A stretch of 64,000 bases of DNA from Methanothermobacter tenebrarum (GTDB lineage Archaea > Methanobacteriota > Methanobacteria > Methanobacteriales > DSM-23052). Positions 27,579 through 37,348 of the stretch are shown here, piece after piece (positions within the stretch are counted from its first letter, which is position 1; each line of letters opens with the position of its first letter). A program made the translations under genes and the position numbers. The stretch is taken from NCBI RefSeq assembly GCF_003264935.1, contig NZ_QLOE01000002.1, positions 124,001-188,000 of the forward strand, in the 5' to 3' direction. The notes under the pieces are model-generated. The model searched no databases. It was not told where the DNA came from and was given only the letters and a program-made list of their open reading frames with translations.

Positions 27579-28757
27579 ATGGATAAAGTTGTCCTTGCAT
27601 TTAGTGGAGGCCTTGACACATCAGTATGTATCAAGTTACTCGAAGAAAAGTATAACATGGAGGTTATCACGGCATGCGTAGATGTGGGACAACCACGTGA
27701 AGAAATCAAAAGACCAGCCCAAGTCTCCAAGGAACTAGGCAATTATAAACATTATACGATAGATGCAAGGGAAGAATTTGCAGAAGATTACATTTTCAGG
27801 GCCATAAAAGCCAACGCATCATATGAAGGCTACCCGTTAAGCACAGCCCTTGCAAGGCCGCTTATAGCCACTAAGATAGTTGAAGTTGCCGAGGAGGAAG
27901 GAGCATCCGCGATAGCCCATGGTTGCACTGGCAAAGGGAATGACCAGTTCAGATTCGAGGCCATTATAAGGTCCATGTGTGACTGTGATGTTATAGCACC
28001 CATAAGAGATCTTAACCTTACAAGATCCGAGGAAATAGAGTATGCAAAGTCTTGTGGAATACCATTACCACCAAAGAAACAATATAGTATAGATGAAAAT
28101 TTATGGGGAAGGGCCATTGAAGGGGACATACTAGAAGATCCTATAATGGAACCCCCAGAGGATGCCTTTAGTTGGACAAAAGCACCAGATGAAACCCCAG
28201 ATGATCCTGAGATTATCCAGATAGGATTCAGGGATGGAATCCCCCAGGAGATTAATGGAGAAGAAATGGAACCTGTTGAACTTATAAAGAAGGCTAATTT
28301 TATCGCGGGAGAACATGGGATCGGCCGAGTAGACATAATAGAAGATCGTATTATAGGAATGAAAAGCCGTGAAGTCTATGAGACGCCAGCTGCTCTGCTC
28401 CTAATAGAGGCTCACAAGGCCCTTGAACAGTTAACACTAACTAGGAATGAGCTTAAATTTGCGGATATGATAAGTGGCATTTACTCAGAATTGGTATATA
28501 ATGGTTTGTGGCATGAACCCCTTAGGGAGGATCTTGACAAGGCCATTGACCATATGCAACGTCGTGTTACAGGTAGAGTTAATGTGAAATTACATAAGGG
28601 TAATATGAGAATCATTGGAAGGGAATCACCTTACAGCTTGTATAGTGAAAAGATTGTCTCATTTGAGGATAAAAGCTTTGATCAGCGGGAAATGAAGGGT
28701 ATGGTTAAAAATTATGGGTTACAGGCTAGGTTATACCAGAAGTTATGGTGGGAATAG
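27579..28757 (+). CDS. argG: Argininosuccinate synthase
   Basis: Joins citrulline and aspartate with ATP in arginine synthesis. 392 residues; the N-terminal PP-loop is [12 protein letters not shown] at residues 5-16, followed by [16 protein letters not shown] near 113 and the substrate-binding [10 protein letters not shown] near the C-terminus, all typical. ATG 27579 follows AGGGTGATCTA. The 3' end overlaps the convergent NAD(P)HX repair gene by 32 bases. Confidence 0.97.
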
Positions 28758-30252
28758 ACATGGCCTTGGGGATGAAATTGATCATCTCAGAAGCTGTGAA
28801 ACCATAACCATATTCTTTTTCAGCCATTTCCCCTGCTCTACCATTTATGAAAGCTGCCAGTGCAGCTGCATCCATTGGTGTTAATCCTTGGGCCCATAAG
28901 GATGCTGTGATACCTGCAAGACAATCCCCAGTACCGCCTACTGTCATCCCTGGAGTCCCTGTACTGTTTAATCGCACTTTTTCGCCTTGGAATATCATGT
29001 CAACTGGCCCTTTTAACAATACAACTCCCTTTATATTATTTGCTATTGAATGGTAGGCTGTGACTTTCTCTTTAAAATCTTCGATGATAATTGGAGATTT
29101 TAGTGAAAAGAATTCTCTGAATTCTCCCTCATGTGGTGTTATAATAAGATTAGGGTAATCTTTGATGGTGTCCTTTTTTATTAGTTTTAGTCCGTCAGCA
29201 TCTATTACAAGGGGTTTTTCCATTTTCATGATTTCCTGGACGAGGAGGTTGAACGCATCCCCTGTATCGGGTTCTAAGCCTCCTCCGCAGCCTATTAGGA
29301 TGCAATCAACCCTCTCTATTATTTTAAGCGCTTTTTTTATCATTCTGGGGTTAATGTGGTCTCCTGGGAATCCTTTGACGATGAGGTCTGGTGAATATGA
29401 TTTTATAGGGAGCATGGCAGACTCTGAGCATGCGATTGTCACAATATCTGCGCCGGCTTTGAGAGCGGCTAAACCTGCAAGTGCAGGAGCCCCAGCATAT
29501 TTAGCACTCCCCCCTACTATTAGTATTCTGCCGTTTTCTCCTTTATGACTTGAGCCTTTCCTCTTGGGTAATCTTAGAAGATCTCCCGGTCCTGTGAATA
29601 CTTCACAAATAATAGGTATCCCAATATCAGATACTATTATCTCCCCTGTGAATGTGGGATCCGCCATTTTTAGGCCATCTTTTATCCTATGGAATGTCAC
29701 AGTATAATCTGCCTCAACCGCAACATCTAATACTTCCCCTGTTCCAGGATCTACACCACTTGGAATGTCTACAGCGATTTTAAGCGCTTCAGATTCGTTC
29801 ATGATTTTTATGGCTGATCTTATAGGCTCTCTTAACCTCCCCTTTATGCCTGTACCTAGGATAGCGTCAACTATCACAGCACTATATGGTGGTTCAAGTT
29901 GGGATGAATCCTCAATTATTCTAAGCTCCAAGGGGGCTGGGGAAATCCTCATCTTCTCTAGGACTTCCCAGTTTTTTTTAGCCTCCTTTGATCTTATCTT
30001 TGAAGGGTGGGCTAATAGTATAACCTCCACTTTAAAGCCCATGTTTAGAAGGTGTCGTGCAGCCACAAAACCATCACCCCCATTGCCCCCGGTACCTGCA
30101 AAGATTGTTACACGTCCACTATCCACTATTTTATTCACTTGTTGAGCAACAGCCTTCCCAGCATTCTCCATTAATGAAAGTCGGGGGATTCCAAGATATT
30201 CTGCATTTAAATCCGTGACCATCATGTCAATAGGCCTCATATTTATCAACAT
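28726..30252 (-). CDS. Bifunctional NAD(P)H-hydrate epimerase / ADP-dependent dehydratase
   Basis: About 508 residues repairing hydrated NAD(P)H. The N-terminal YjeF_N epimerase half has [12 protein letters not shown] and the phosphate loop [13 protein letters not shown]. The C-terminal ribokinase-like dehydratase half has [28 protein letters not shown] and the nucleotide-binding [13 protein letters not shown]. The fused NnrE-NnrD layout is common in archaea and bacteria. ATG 30252 is chosen because homologues begin near [18 protein letters not shown] 30240 is nearly as good. A TATA-like TATTATATC lies about 30 bases upstream. Confidence 0.9.
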
Positions 30253-30330
30253 CCTAAAAAGGGTTATATTCATTAATAGTGATATAATAGTTTTAAAGAG
30301 GATTAAGTTTTTCATTTGAGGTTTTGTCCC

Positions 30331-32280
30331 ATGCCTCCACAAGAACCTAAGATTTCACGATGGGAATCTGCTGTCGAATACATACAGACCGTACCAACAT
30401 CCATATTCTATTATGGGATATTAGCACTCATAATATTACTCATATATGGCATCATAGGTTCTCTTTTTATTATGGGCCTCAGCTTCTATGATGCCATCTA
30501 TTTTACCATAGTCACGCTCGCGACTGTAGGCTATGGAGACATCGTACCCCATACCATTGGACAGAAACTTTTCAGCGTGACCTTGGCACTTGGTGGTGTA
30601 GGTCTTATAGCATATGTTTTTAGTGTCGGTGTGGCGGTGGTTGCCATGACATTAGAAGAAACAATCTCTGGTGCAAAGATCCGTAGGATTATGAGGGCTA
30701 TGCAAAACCATTTTATATTATGTGGTTTTGGCAGGGTTGGATCAGCCACATTTAAAGAATTGAGAAAGAGGAACCATAAAGTTATCATAATCGAAAAGGA
30801 TAGGACGCTCGTTGAAAAAGAATTATGGGAGGACCCTAACATCCTCGCGATCCCAGGTGATGCCACAGATGAGGAACTATTAAAAGATGCCGGGATTAAG
30901 AGGGCGAGGGGCATCATCATAACAACTGGTGATGATGTGGATAATCTCTTTATTACGCTCACCTCAAGGGAGCTCAACCCTGATATATGGATAGTTACAA
31001 GGGCAAGTAAAAGAGAAAACATAAAGAGATTATACAGGGCAGGGGCTAACCGTGTCATCTCCCCAGAGATAAGTGGGGGAGAAGACATTTATTTCGCGGC
31101 CATGGAACCCACAATGGTGAAGATAACTGTAAAACATGAAGTCAAGGACATAGAAAAGGAAACTGAGATCATAATAAAGAATGGTTGCACCATCGAAGAC
31201 ATAGAATATCATCTCCCAGAATTTAAAAGGCCCCTCATACGGAAAGTTGAAGTTTCAAGAAGAAGACAATTAGAAAAGTTCCTAAAAAGTCTCGAAGAGG
31301 ATGTTCACCGACGAAGATCCCTTGAAAGGATCTATGAGTCGGTGAGTGGCATACACTCCCACTGGATTTCAGGACCCGATAAAAAAACCATGGAAAAAGT
31401 GGTCAAGGAATTAGAAGAGGAAGGATTACTACTAGGAGTGAACCTTTCAGAGGATGAAATAAAAGAAGTAGCACGTAAACATGGCCGCCTCGTGGAGGTC
31501 ATAATAAAACCAGAAATGACAATAGTAGAAAACCATGGTGTTGAGGATATAAAAAAGGAAGCAGAGGTCATAATAAAGAATGGTTGCACCCTTGAAGACA
31601 TAGAATATTATCTACCAGGCTTCAGAGAACCATTAAAACGGGAAATACACGTAGATGACATAGAAGACGTGGAAAGATTCGTTGAAGCTTTGAAAAATAA
31701 TCCTTCAAAGTATGAAGCCCTTGACAGACTTTACATGCTCTCGGGTGGGGGCGTGCACAGCCACCGTATTTCAGCGCCTGATACAAAAAGCCTTGAAAAG
31801 GTGGAAGATGAGCTCAAAGAGTGCGGATTCCTCCTAGGTGTTAATCTCAGTCAAAAGGAGATAAAAGATCTCATCCAAAGATCTGGTAGGGTTGCTCAGA
31901 TCCTAGTAAAACATGATGTTGGAGTCGTTGATGATAAGAGGATAATAGTGGAAAATGGTGGTAGGATACTTGACTCATCCCATTATCTCCCTGGGGTAAA
32001 GCAAATTGTAACAAGGAAACTGAACATTAAAAATTTTGAGGATCTTAGAAGTTGTGAAAAGGAACTTGAAAATCCGGATGCTAGAAGATCTCTCACAGCA
32101 CTTTATAAAATATCCCGTAATATACATTCACATACAGTGGCAGCCCCGGATGTGAAGATCATCAAGAAAATAGAAACTGAATTAAAAAAGAAGGGTCTGC
32201 TTTTAGGCGTGAATCTTTCAGAGGATGAAGTATGGGATATTATAGAAAAAGAAATGATTGAGAAGTTCTGTATAGACTAG
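30331..32280 (+). CDS. Potassium channel with RCK nucleotide-binding domain and three novel C-terminal repeats
   Basis: About 649 residues. Two membrane helices (about 27-50 and 85-108) flank a pore helix and the selectivity filter TVGYGD near 67-72, as in two-TM potassium channels. A TrkA-N/RCK Rossmann domain follows ([19 protein letters not shown], about 125-255). From about residue 262 to the end the protein consists of three related modules of roughly 125-133 residues instead of a normal RCK C-domain; each contains a KNGC..EDIEY.LP element, an HSH..S.PD element and an LLLGVNLS element. These could be ligand-binding gating domains. ATG 30331 is preferred to TTG 30316 (GAGG nine bases upstream). 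Its stop shares CTAG with the ftr stop. Confidence 0.88.
31114..32265 (+). repeat. Three tandem protein-coding modules in the channel C-terminus
   Basis: Module A about 31114-31488, B about 31489-31889, C about 31890-32265. A and B still share identical DNA runs such as CATAATAAAGAATGGTTGC near 31170 and 31570, so they arose by fairly recent internal duplication; C is more diverged ([39 protein letters not shown]). Confidence 0.8.
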
Positions 32281-33170
32281 AATAGTTCATGGAGTTTTAT
32301 CTGATAGGCTCCAAGTTTTCCACCATAGTTTCCTGCACTGATCTTCTTGACACCTGGCACTTTACACGCTGCTTCTATACCAGCCCTTGTAGCCTCCTTT
32401 ACGGCTTCTTCGTCGACACCATCAATGACTATCTCATAGACTCCGTTTACATCCGCTGGTATCTGGCTGCCCTCGACCTCGTCTTTTAATGTGACGCACA
32501 TCTTCTCATTCGTGGAAGCGTCAAGGAATTTATACTTGTTAGACCCGACCTTGGATCCTGAAGCAACTACTCCACCAGGGAATGGTGTTATCACACCCTC
32601 AACAGCACTTATCGCATCAACTGCTGCCTGCGCTGCTAATAGTGCTGATCCTTGACTGTCACCTAATATGAAAAAGTTTCCACCAGCAACGCCATCTTTT
32701 ATTCCTAGGTCGCTTTCGATTAGGAAATCGCCAGACATTATAGGAATGGAATGAATCTTCCTACCGGCTATTTCAAGATCCTTCTCATAACCGTCCCCAA
32801 AGAATTTTAATTTGAATCCCACATTCAATTTTTCATCAGGGTCCTCCAGTGCATCGAATACCGCAGTTGTTGGTGCTGTGAGTATACCCATCCCTATCCT
32901 CTCAAGTAGTTCATGGTCTAGACCCTTCTTTGTAGGATTGCATATCATTATAGTGTATCCTGGTCTCCCATCAGGTGACTCCCCTGGTGGTATATATGAG
33001 TCTATACCTGCCTCGGCCGAACATCCTATAACAGATGTTCCATAGCCTGTTGCCTCTGTAGCGGCTATCTTCGCAAGTTTTTTGGTTGCCGCTGTGACAA
33101 GAACCCTTGAAACTTTAATATCGAAGGCTTCTGCAAATGTGTCTTCTATCTCGACTCCATTTATTTCCAT
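32277..33170 (-). CDS. ftr: Formylmethanofuran:tetrahydromethanopterin formyltransferase
   Basis: Transfers the formyl group from formylmethanofuran to H4MPT, the second step of CO2 reduction to methane, in the cytoplasm. 297 residues, the normal family length, beginning [52 protein letters not shown] and the C-terminal [16 protein letters not shown] are family-typical. The rich acidic composition fits thermophilic Ftr. It is convergent with the channel gene and followed upstream by a separate transcript. Confidence 0.96.
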
Positions 33171-35195: not shown

Positions 35196-36638
35196 ATGAT
35201 GAGGTATGTTAGAAGACGAGATTTTCTGATTGTTGGAAAGTTCCTAGGGACAATAATGCAAGCCGTGGGCATAATCGTCTTATTAACTATAATAGTCGCG
35301 GTCATATACAATGAAGGACATTATCCAAGCTTTATTTTTCCTTCGCTATTATCGATAGCTACAGGGACTCTGATCAGAATTATACTCAAAAGGTATCCTA
35401 TTAGTGGAGATATAATAAAGCTAAAGCATGGAATGATGATCGCATCCCTTGGATGGCTCTGGGCAACCTTTATAGGTGCACTAATTCTAATGTTATATCT
35501 TAACATTGATCTTGTAAACGCCGCCTTTGAGAACATGTCAGGGTGGACGACCACAGGACTTAGCATATTCTCAGACGTCCAATCACTCCCAAAATCAATA
35601 CTACTTCTAAGAAGCCTAGAACAGTGGATCGGCGGATTAGGGGTGGTTATAGTAGTTATTGGGGTGCTTATTAGGCCAGGCACTGCCGCGTCAAGACTTT
35701 ACAAGTCAGAAGCCCGGGATGAGAGGATCAAGCCAAGTATTGTGAATACTGTTAAAACGATCTGGTGGATCTATATAACATACACCATCATGGGTATAAT
35801 ATTATACTGTATCAGTGGAATGCCCGTATTCGACGCTGTAAATCACACCTTTTCCGCCCTCTCCACTGGAGGATTCTCCATAAAAAATGATAATATCGGA
35901 TATTACCACAATAACATAATATACTTGATATCAATGCTCCTCATGACCCTTGGGGGTACAAGTTTCATAGTCCACTATCAACTACTAAAAGGGAATATAA
36001 AAAACGTCCTAAAGGATGTTCAACTCCAAGCTGCCATCACCTTTATAATACTCTTCTCGATCCTTATAATATACCTTGGAAGGCTAGCCCCCATGGAAGG
36101 CATCTTCCATGTAGTGTCAAGTCTCAGCACAACAGGATTCAACATCAGCCCCACCAATACAATGATAGCATGGCCAGCATACGTGAAAATAATCCTAATA
36201 GCATGTATGATGATAGGTATGGCTACAGGTTCCACAGGTGGTGGTATAAAACTATTAAGGATAATAACCATTATCAAGGGGATCTACTGGGAGATAATCA
36301 GGATACTCGCACCTGAAGGTTCAGTCATCCCTAGGGAAATATCAGGCAAAAGTATAGGCGATGTAGAGATAAAAGAAGCCGGATCCTATCTAAACCTCTA
36401 TCTTGTCTTCATGTTTATAAGCTGGTCAATCCTACTATTATATGGGTATGAACCACTAAATTCACTTTTTGAAGTTGCCTCTGCACAGGGAAACGTGGGA
36501 CTCAGTATGGGCATAACATCTGCCACACTCCCCACAATCCCCAAAATAGCCTTAATATTTAATATGTGGATTGGCAGACTAGAGATCATACCCATACTCG
36601 TCCTAATCAGGGGCATAATAGAAGCCTTTAAAAGATAA
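35196..36638 (+). CDS. trkH: Trk-type potassium uptake protein, membrane subunit
   Basis: 480 residues with about ten membrane segments and repeated pore loops: FENMSGWTTTGLSIF, FSALSTGGFSIK, VSSLSTTGFNI and SAQGNVGLSMG, which carry the four glycine filter positions of the TrkH/KtrB family. It imports K+ together with the cytoplasmic TrkA encoded 60 bases downstream. A second ATG at 35199 is an alternative start. Confidence 0.93.
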   Translation: MMRYVRRRDFLIVGKFLGTIMQAVGIIVLLTIIVAVIYNEGHYPSFIFPSLLSIATGTLIRIILKRYPISGDIIKLKHGMMIASLGWLWATFIGALILMLYLNIDLVNAAFENMSGWTTTGLSIFSDVQSLPKSILLLRSLEQWIGGLGVVIVVIGVLIRPGTAASRLYKSEARDERIKPSIVNTVKTIWWIYITYTIMGIILYCISGMPVFDAVNHTFSALSTGGFSIKNDNIGYYHNNIIYLISMLLMTLGGTSFIVHYQLLKGNIKNVLKDVQLQAAITFIILFSILIIYLGRLAPMEGIFHVVSSLSTTGFNISPTNTMIAWPAYVKIILIACMMIGMATGSTGGGIKLLRIITIIKGIYWEIIRILAPEGSVIPREISGKSIGDVEIKEAGSYLNLYLVFMFISWSILLLYGYEPLNSLFEVASAQGNVGLSMGITSATLPTIPKIALIFNMWIGRLEIIPILVLIRGIIEAFKR

Positions 36639-36697
36639 AAGTTTATTAATAATAAAGTTAGACCTTTGAAATGGAAATTTACTTCTCAGGTGTAGAT

Positions 36698-37348
36698 ATG
36701 TATGTTGTTATAATGGGTGGTGGAAGAGTAGGACTAACCTTGGCAAGTCTCTTAATATCGGATGGACATGATGTAACGCTCATAGAAAGCGACGAATCAT
36801 TATGTGCCGATGCCGCTGTTGAACTTGACGCCCTCGTAATCTGCGGTAACGGTACAGATACAAAAACCCTCGAAGAGGCCAACATAAAGGATGCTGATGT
36901 TTTTGTCGCGGCCACAGGAAATGATGAGGCTAACCTCTTAAGTTGCATACTTGCAAGGGAGTATCATGTCCCCAAGATCATCGCAAGGGTTAGTAACCCA
37001 GATCATGAGGACGCATTCCACAAGGTAGGCATACAATATGTTATAAGCCCTGAGAGGACCGCGGCAGGATACCTTGAAAAACTCATAACCAGGCCTAAGG
37101 TGGCCGATCTTATAGTTCTCGGTCATGGAGATGCTGAGATCCTTGACATGACCGTGAAAAACCATGAGGTAGTCGGTAAGAGGATAGGGGATATCTCACC
37201 CACAGAAGAGTATATAATAATCGCAATTCATACCAATGGTGAGATTAAAATACCCCAACCAGACATGATATTAGAAGAAGATACTAAGATATCTGTCCTC
37301 GTGAAGATGGACGCGGTCCAGAAGGTTACTAATCTCTTCGCAGGCTAA
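36698..37348 (+). CDS. trkA: Trk potassium uptake regulatory protein
   Basis: 216 residues. RCK/TrkA-N Rossmann domain [19 protein letters not shown] with the nucleotide-ribose acid in VTLIESDES, then a TrkA-C domain from about 140 ([19 protein letters not shown]). It gates TrkH by binding NAD(H) or ATP-type ligands. ATG 36698 is preferred to 36671 because the Rossmann strand starts there and AGGTG lies just upstream. Confidence 0.93.

Follow-up and report, generated by a model that had tools for sequence, protein, structure and literature searches.

RCK channels are gated by calcium, sodium, or nucleotides, and one described member, GsuK, repeats RCK domains. In NiaR, a repressor that responds to niacin, the 3H domain (PF02829) serves as effector domain. 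According to the structural report (PMC7713382), zinc is held in Bacillus halodurans NiaR by Glu91, His150, and His152, with His83, located 3.8 Å from the zinc, binding the carboxylate of niacin; in T. maritima NiaR, the equivalent four residues hold nickel, and NiaR crystals contain zinc or nickel without niacin. The same source describes a dimer in which Tyr112 reaches across to line the pocket of the partner subunit.

Here, we describe a gene found in a 64,000-nucleotide stretch of the Methanothermobacter tenebrarum genome (contig NZ_QLOE01000002.1, positions 124,001 to 188,000; hereafter “the window”), whose product is predicted to be a two-transmembrane RCK-type potassium channel with 3H domains in place of the RCK C-lobe.

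An RCK-type potassium channel with three tandem repeats

The features of the locus are collected in Table 1. The N-terminal part of the protein carries a two-transmembrane pore with the potassium filter TVGYGD, followed by a single TrkA_N match, as the initial annotation had recognized in pointing out the filter and one RCK Rossmann domain. The RCK C-lobe (TrkA_C) is absent among the 18 Pfam families listed for the 649-residue channel at E values up to 10, and the region where it would be expected is occupied by 3H modules. Thus, we refer to the protein as an RCK-type channel variant rather than as a standard member of the family.

The three C-terminal repeats comprise 125 (A), 134 (B), and 128 (C) residues, with module B carrying an eight-residue insert near its N-terminus. 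Compared with shuffled sequences (300 shuffles each), the pairwise alignment scores of the repeats are higher by 28.3 (A-B), 17.6 (A-C), and 18.2 (B-C) standard deviations, so that their similarity is not a matter of chance. Both the tandem triplication and its position in place of the RCK C-domain had been proposed from the DNA alone and agree with these data; the proposed twelve modules per channel likewise follow from three modules per subunit, provided that the channel is a tetramer.

Table 1. Features of the channel locus, with positions counted from the first nucleotide of the window
Feature	Position	Strand	Residues and motifs	Evidence
Complete potassium channel gene (two-TM pore, RCK N-lobe, and three 3H modules)	30331..32280	+	649 aa; ATG at 30331, stop at 32280	Open frame, Pfam; upstream GAGGT 5' of the ATG backs the start
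Pore domain (Ion_trans_2)	30424..30639	+	32-103; filter TVGYGD at 65-70	Pfam E 1.3e-15
RCK N-lobe (TrkA_N)	30712..31065	+	128-245; GFGRVG nucleotide-type motif	Pfam E 6.2e-35
3H module A	31117..31491	+	263-387, 125 aa; site H269, E277, H342, H344	
3H module B	31492..31893	+	388-521, 134 aa; site H, E, HSH complete	Best structural match 9ebr
3H module C	31894..32277	+	522-649, 128 aa; H and HSH kept, Lys in Glu column	
nnr, NAD(P)H-hydrate epimerase/dehydratase, divergent neighbor	28726..30288	-	Upper end as translated	
ftr, formylmethanofuran--tetrahydromethanopterin N-formyltransferase, convergent neighbor	32277..33170	-		
TrkH (35196-36638) and TrkA-like (36671-37348), potassium uptake, downstream	35196..37348	+		

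The repeats are 3H domains

The initial annotation had regarded the repeats as an unrecognized, new domain and had stated that this view would fall if they confidently matched a domain already described. Such a match is provided by PF02829, which aligns to three stretches of the channel with a whole-protein E value of 1.2e-67 (224.6 bits against a gathering score of 25), and the three modules taken one at a time, at 86.6, 85.9, and 72.8 bits, also lie above that score. In agreement with this, a phmmer comparison of the array with NiaR chains returned 9ebr and 1j5y at E values of about 1e-8, and 7cv0 at 0.02. We then modeled the three-module array with AlphaFold2 (mean pLDDT 85.6). In this predicted model, module B superimposes on nicotinate-bound NiaR (9ebr) with a Z score of 15.7 and 1.6 Å over 106 residues at 32% identity, and thus has the NiaR 3H fold; the comparison covers mainly module B, with modules A and C barely included. 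The next structural matches, 1j5y (Z 15.4) and 7cv0 (Z 14.8), are also NiaR structures, the next unrelated fold follows at 6.8, and the three Foldseek matches of the array model that pass an E value of 0.001 are all NiaR. The model of the full-length channel has low global confidence (pTM 0.41).

Taken together, the Pfam match, the phmmer hits to NiaR, and the superposition of module B lead us to reject the new-domain reading. Of the earlier proposal of a new gating or sensor domain, what stands is a sensor-type array in the place of the RCK C-lobe, and what falls is the novelty of the domain: the domain is known already, and the point of interest is that a sensor array of the NiaR type is combined with an RCK-type channel. 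Each channel module also extends past the NiaR domain by a further strand and a helix ([13 protein letters not shown] in module A), which are missing from the aligned NiaR segments and from the kinase modules described below.

Distribution and age of the triplication

The 3H domain is present in 131 of the 149 genomes of the order and in 133 of the 151 of the phylum; among 14 control genomes, it was found in B. subtilis and T. maritima only. For a census of the channel, we searched the 151 genomes with the RCK-3H junction (270 residues). The three-module form was found in 17 of them, all checked as sequences, one being cut by a contig end. The one-module form was found in 69 (70 rows, one genome appearing twice); this call was made from the extent of the match and the frame length, with nine of the 69 checked as sequence, and nine more single modules were taken from the loci of a peptide-pattern scan. 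Among the remaining junction matches, six genomes gave partial matches only and three matched only via the kinase. One further match (G070:C27:32853-33338) contains seven internal stops and resembles a decayed channel gene. The modules are thus conserved among homologs, but their number is not fixed.

Methanobrevibacter and its relatives carry a single A-like module. A scan of contigs with two narrow peptide patterns yielded 39 stretches, 12 of which are relatives (nine from Methanobrevibacter, two from Methanobacteriaceae, and one from a Euryarchaeota archaeon). Outside the same class, no match was found at an E value of 1e-60 among 395 relatives from 204 genera, with at most six candidates scored per genome; the 88 below this cut-off all belong to the same class. 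An RCK-type channel with a NiaR-type array is, as judged from these sequence matches, kept through much of an archaeal class.

The duplication had earlier been taken as fairly recent, given identical DNA stretches shared by modules A and B. This reading is rejected: only 62% of the bases are identical in the ungapped aligned parts of A and B, and the longest identical run is 23 bases (17 and 13 in two compared sister species). In a tree of the modules (78 rows), C forms one group (100/99), A joins the single modules (99/85), and B groups at 87/82 (not starred); the tree has long branches among the single modules and is built on few columns. The A, B, and C orthologs cluster by position over four families, and the three modules of Methanothermus fervidus each fall within their own positional group. 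This grouping by position places the triplication before the split of the four families, so that it is old, and the single-module form is best read as a loss of B and C.

Conservation of the metal site and a proposed gating mechanism

In our alignment, the NiaR site residues (His, Glu, and His-x-His) are all kept in 17/17 A modules, 17/17 B modules, and 18/18 single modules, which therefore all carry the NiaR metal ligands Glu and His-x-His; the three conserved histidines of the 3H family are found in 69/69 A, B, C, and single modules. The HSH motif, which had been proposed as a possible metal or nucleotide site, is the counterpart of the NiaR metal ligands. Module C keeps the three histidines (17/17) and lacks the Glu in all 17 sequences, with a Lys in the Glu column, although an Asp stands just before this column and would be placed there by another alignment.

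The pocket itself differs from that of NiaR. In the alignment of A and B, Leu92 is replaced by Ala, Thr, or Ser, and Tyr112 by Phe; the Leu141 column holds an Arg in 33 of the 34 A and B modules, an uncertain assignment since the column adjoins a gap. Two further residues of the window protein, R304 and Y335, show no variation among the 17 aligned archaeal modules; in the NiaR alignments, R304 faces Gly or Ala and Y335 faces a residue other than Tyr. Given this altered pocket with its extra invariant Arg and Tyr, the ligand may differ from niacin.

By analogy with NiaR, we consider it moderately probable that the potassium channel is gated via its 3H modules by a metal-bound carboxylate, possibly a niacin-like one. 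Modules A and B would each bind a divalent metal (zinc or nickel) via Glu and His-x-His, and the metal together with the first His would bind a small ligand by its carboxylate, in the way that NiaR binds niacin. The 3H modules of neighboring subunits would pair as in the NiaR dimer, and a ligand at the pair interface would move the RCK ring and, with it, the pore helices, the transmission to the pore running through the RCK N-lobe. Module C, with its altered Glu position, may be a structural module or carry a modified site. The ligand would most likely be a metabolite with a carboxylate group; the first candidate, niacin or another NAD precursor, is one that we consider possible rather than probable. 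The most specific version of the proposal, in which nicotinate or another NAD precursor on zinc or nickel would gate the channel, each tetramer having eight intact 3H sites and four altered ones, and would couple K+ flux to the NAD-precursor state in Methanobacteria, including the methanogens of the gut, is tentative and somewhat doubtful; in M. fervidus, it would concern the sole channel of its own pore family.

Another possibility is that the 3H modules sense metal only, such that the channel would answer to Zn2+ or Ni2+ with no organic ligand involved. Nickel is vital to methanogens, and the conservation of the metal-site residues in 52/52 A, B, and single modules is compatible with this idea, as is the presence of the nickel regulator NikR among the distant structural neighbors, even if its Z score of 6.6 is within noise. 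The NiaR report (PMC7713382) adds the crystals that hold zinc or nickel without niacin, but it also assigns the first His of B. halodurans NiaR to the niacin carboxylate, and this His is equally invariant in our modules (52/52). The latter point is not decisive, since the first His is a metal ligand in T. maritima NiaR; on balance, we regard sensing of metal alone as rather unlikely. It is also conceivable that the modules are structural, pairing subunits and steadying the tetramer, with gating effected by a nucleotide at the RCK N-lobe. That one module is enough in the 69 one-module genomes and that module C lacks the Glu would both fit a structural role, which leaves unexplained, however, why all four site residues are kept in each of the 52 A, B, and single modules, and which we therefore consider quite unlikely.

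Gene neighborhood and the 3H kinase

The only other 3H gene matched in the genome of the window encodes a P-loop kinase (PRK12338, NF008995) with one 3H domain, related to 2-phosphoglycerate kinase (G000:C1:27034-27996; L008 877-1839). Its 3H site is often altered: among 21 kinases, the first His is kept in 15, each His of His-x-His in 16, and the Glu in 8, the Glu count being alignment dependent, as the kinase of the window genome carries a Glu one position ahead of that column. A separate gene encodes 2-phosphoglycerate kinase itself; it was matched in 122 of the 151 genomes, also in groups g5 and g15, where the search matched no 3H channel, and its co-occurrence with the channel was discarded as uninformative, the gene being nearly universal. 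In genome G016, 2-phosphoglycerate kinase was unmatched at an E value of 1e-70, while the other seven g2 genomes have one; this is perhaps another frame disruption of the assembly.

In thermophilic methanogens, the cyclic 2,3-diphosphoglycerate pathway yields a solute that is balanced by potassium, and it could be argued from the kinase relationship of the sole other 3H protein and from the extra invariant Arg of the modules that the array senses a phosphorylated carboxylate of this pathway and so matches K+ flux to solute; yet this is improbable, as the occurrence of 2-phosphoglycerate kinase in g5 and g15 means that co-occurrence does not point to this pathway, and the 3H site of the kinase is itself altered in many species.

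Gene order offers weak context for the metal-bound carboxylate that we favor. The fetched flanks contain nnr in 20 of the 21 channel loci of the order (the window and 20 others), and ftr in 20 of the 21, the exception being a stretch no longer than 2,200 bases; some loci have a further frame separating the channel from its neighbor. In M. fervidus, ftr is kept and an HtpX-like gene stands where nnr would be. Similarly, 16 of the 20 3H-kinase loci (all from one order) have nadC in their flanks, and nadC was not found within 13 kb around the M. fervidus 3H kinase. The proximity of nnr to the channel and of nadC to the kinase is a weak hint to NAD metabolism, because the loci counted belong to one order, in which gene order is inherited.

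As to other pores, the window genome has one other Ion_trans_2 match, confined to a 101-residue frame. A second ion-channel pore of this genome seems to fall into two frames, of 141 and 67 residues (L101 1438-2092, G000:C3, minus strand of the locus) and is possibly a broken channel gene. The one Ion_trans_2 match in the M. fervidus genome is the 3H channel, and the filter of this ortholog reads TTGFGD instead of TVGYGD (L095 5351-7261). In group g2, each of the eight genomes also has, in a gene of its own, a pore frame of 336 to 359 residues, the length of MthK. Two g2 channel genes are disrupted at the selectivity filter within their pore part, in G010 by a direct repeat of 33 bases whose two copies flank a stop (L054 3900-4260) and in G016 by a frame change (L053 4002-4400), with the RCK-3H part remaining open in both; these disruptions may reflect sequencing error. 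In 18 of the 22 channel loci, a Met shortly precedes the RCK domain. An internal start producing a soluble gating ring, as in MthK, is not claimed, because inspection of these loci by eye revealed no consistent ribosome-binding motif before that Met.

Significance

If the proposed gating is correct, a vitamin or metal sensor on a channel would represent a new kind of gating input, and the NAD-precursor or metal state would be linked to K+ in methanogens; having potassium flow controlled through 3H would be unusual. The idea lends itself directly to experiment, as the structure of a related sensor with its ligand is known (9ebr), and, with a one- or three-module channel in 86 of the 151 genomes, both natural forms can be compared. 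A literature search over titles and abstract openings, in which subscription papers were thinly covered, found no study concerning a 3H-bearing channel. Fusions of 3H to channels may already be listed in the original description of the domain. Our own survey spans 151 genomes of the phylum, 14 controls, and 395 relatives.

Comparison with known systems

The 3H kinase shares with the channel a 3H domain from the same archaeal branch, but it is a soluble kinase with one 3H copy, in which site residues are often replaced. NiaR (YrxA, TM1602; PDB 1j5y, 9ebr, and 7cv0) resembles the channel array in its fold (Z 14.8 to 15.7 for module B), its His, Glu, and His-x-His residues, and its sequence family. 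However, the 3H domain of NiaR is fused to a DNA-binding domain and that of the channel to a potassium channel; the helix-turn-helix found at the N-terminus of the NiaR repressor is missing, its place before the 3H modules being taken by the pore and RCK domains; and the channel has three tandem 3H copies, each with the additional C-terminal strand and helix and with an altered pocket that includes the additional invariant Arg and Tyr. By its domain order, the channel protein is thus not a NiaR. MthK, a calcium-gated RCK channel, shares the two-transmembrane pore and RCK N-lobe (phmmer E value 2.8e-25 over residues 31 to 251), whereas our protein has no TrkA_C match and bears the 3H array in that place. 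Finally, GsuK (PDB 4gx0 to 4gx5, with NAD- and ADP-bound structures), two entries of which (4gx5 and 4gx0) top the list of sequence matches of the channel, likewise carries a multidomain cytoplasmic array on a two-transmembrane pore, but in the channel described here it is 3H domains that are repeated.
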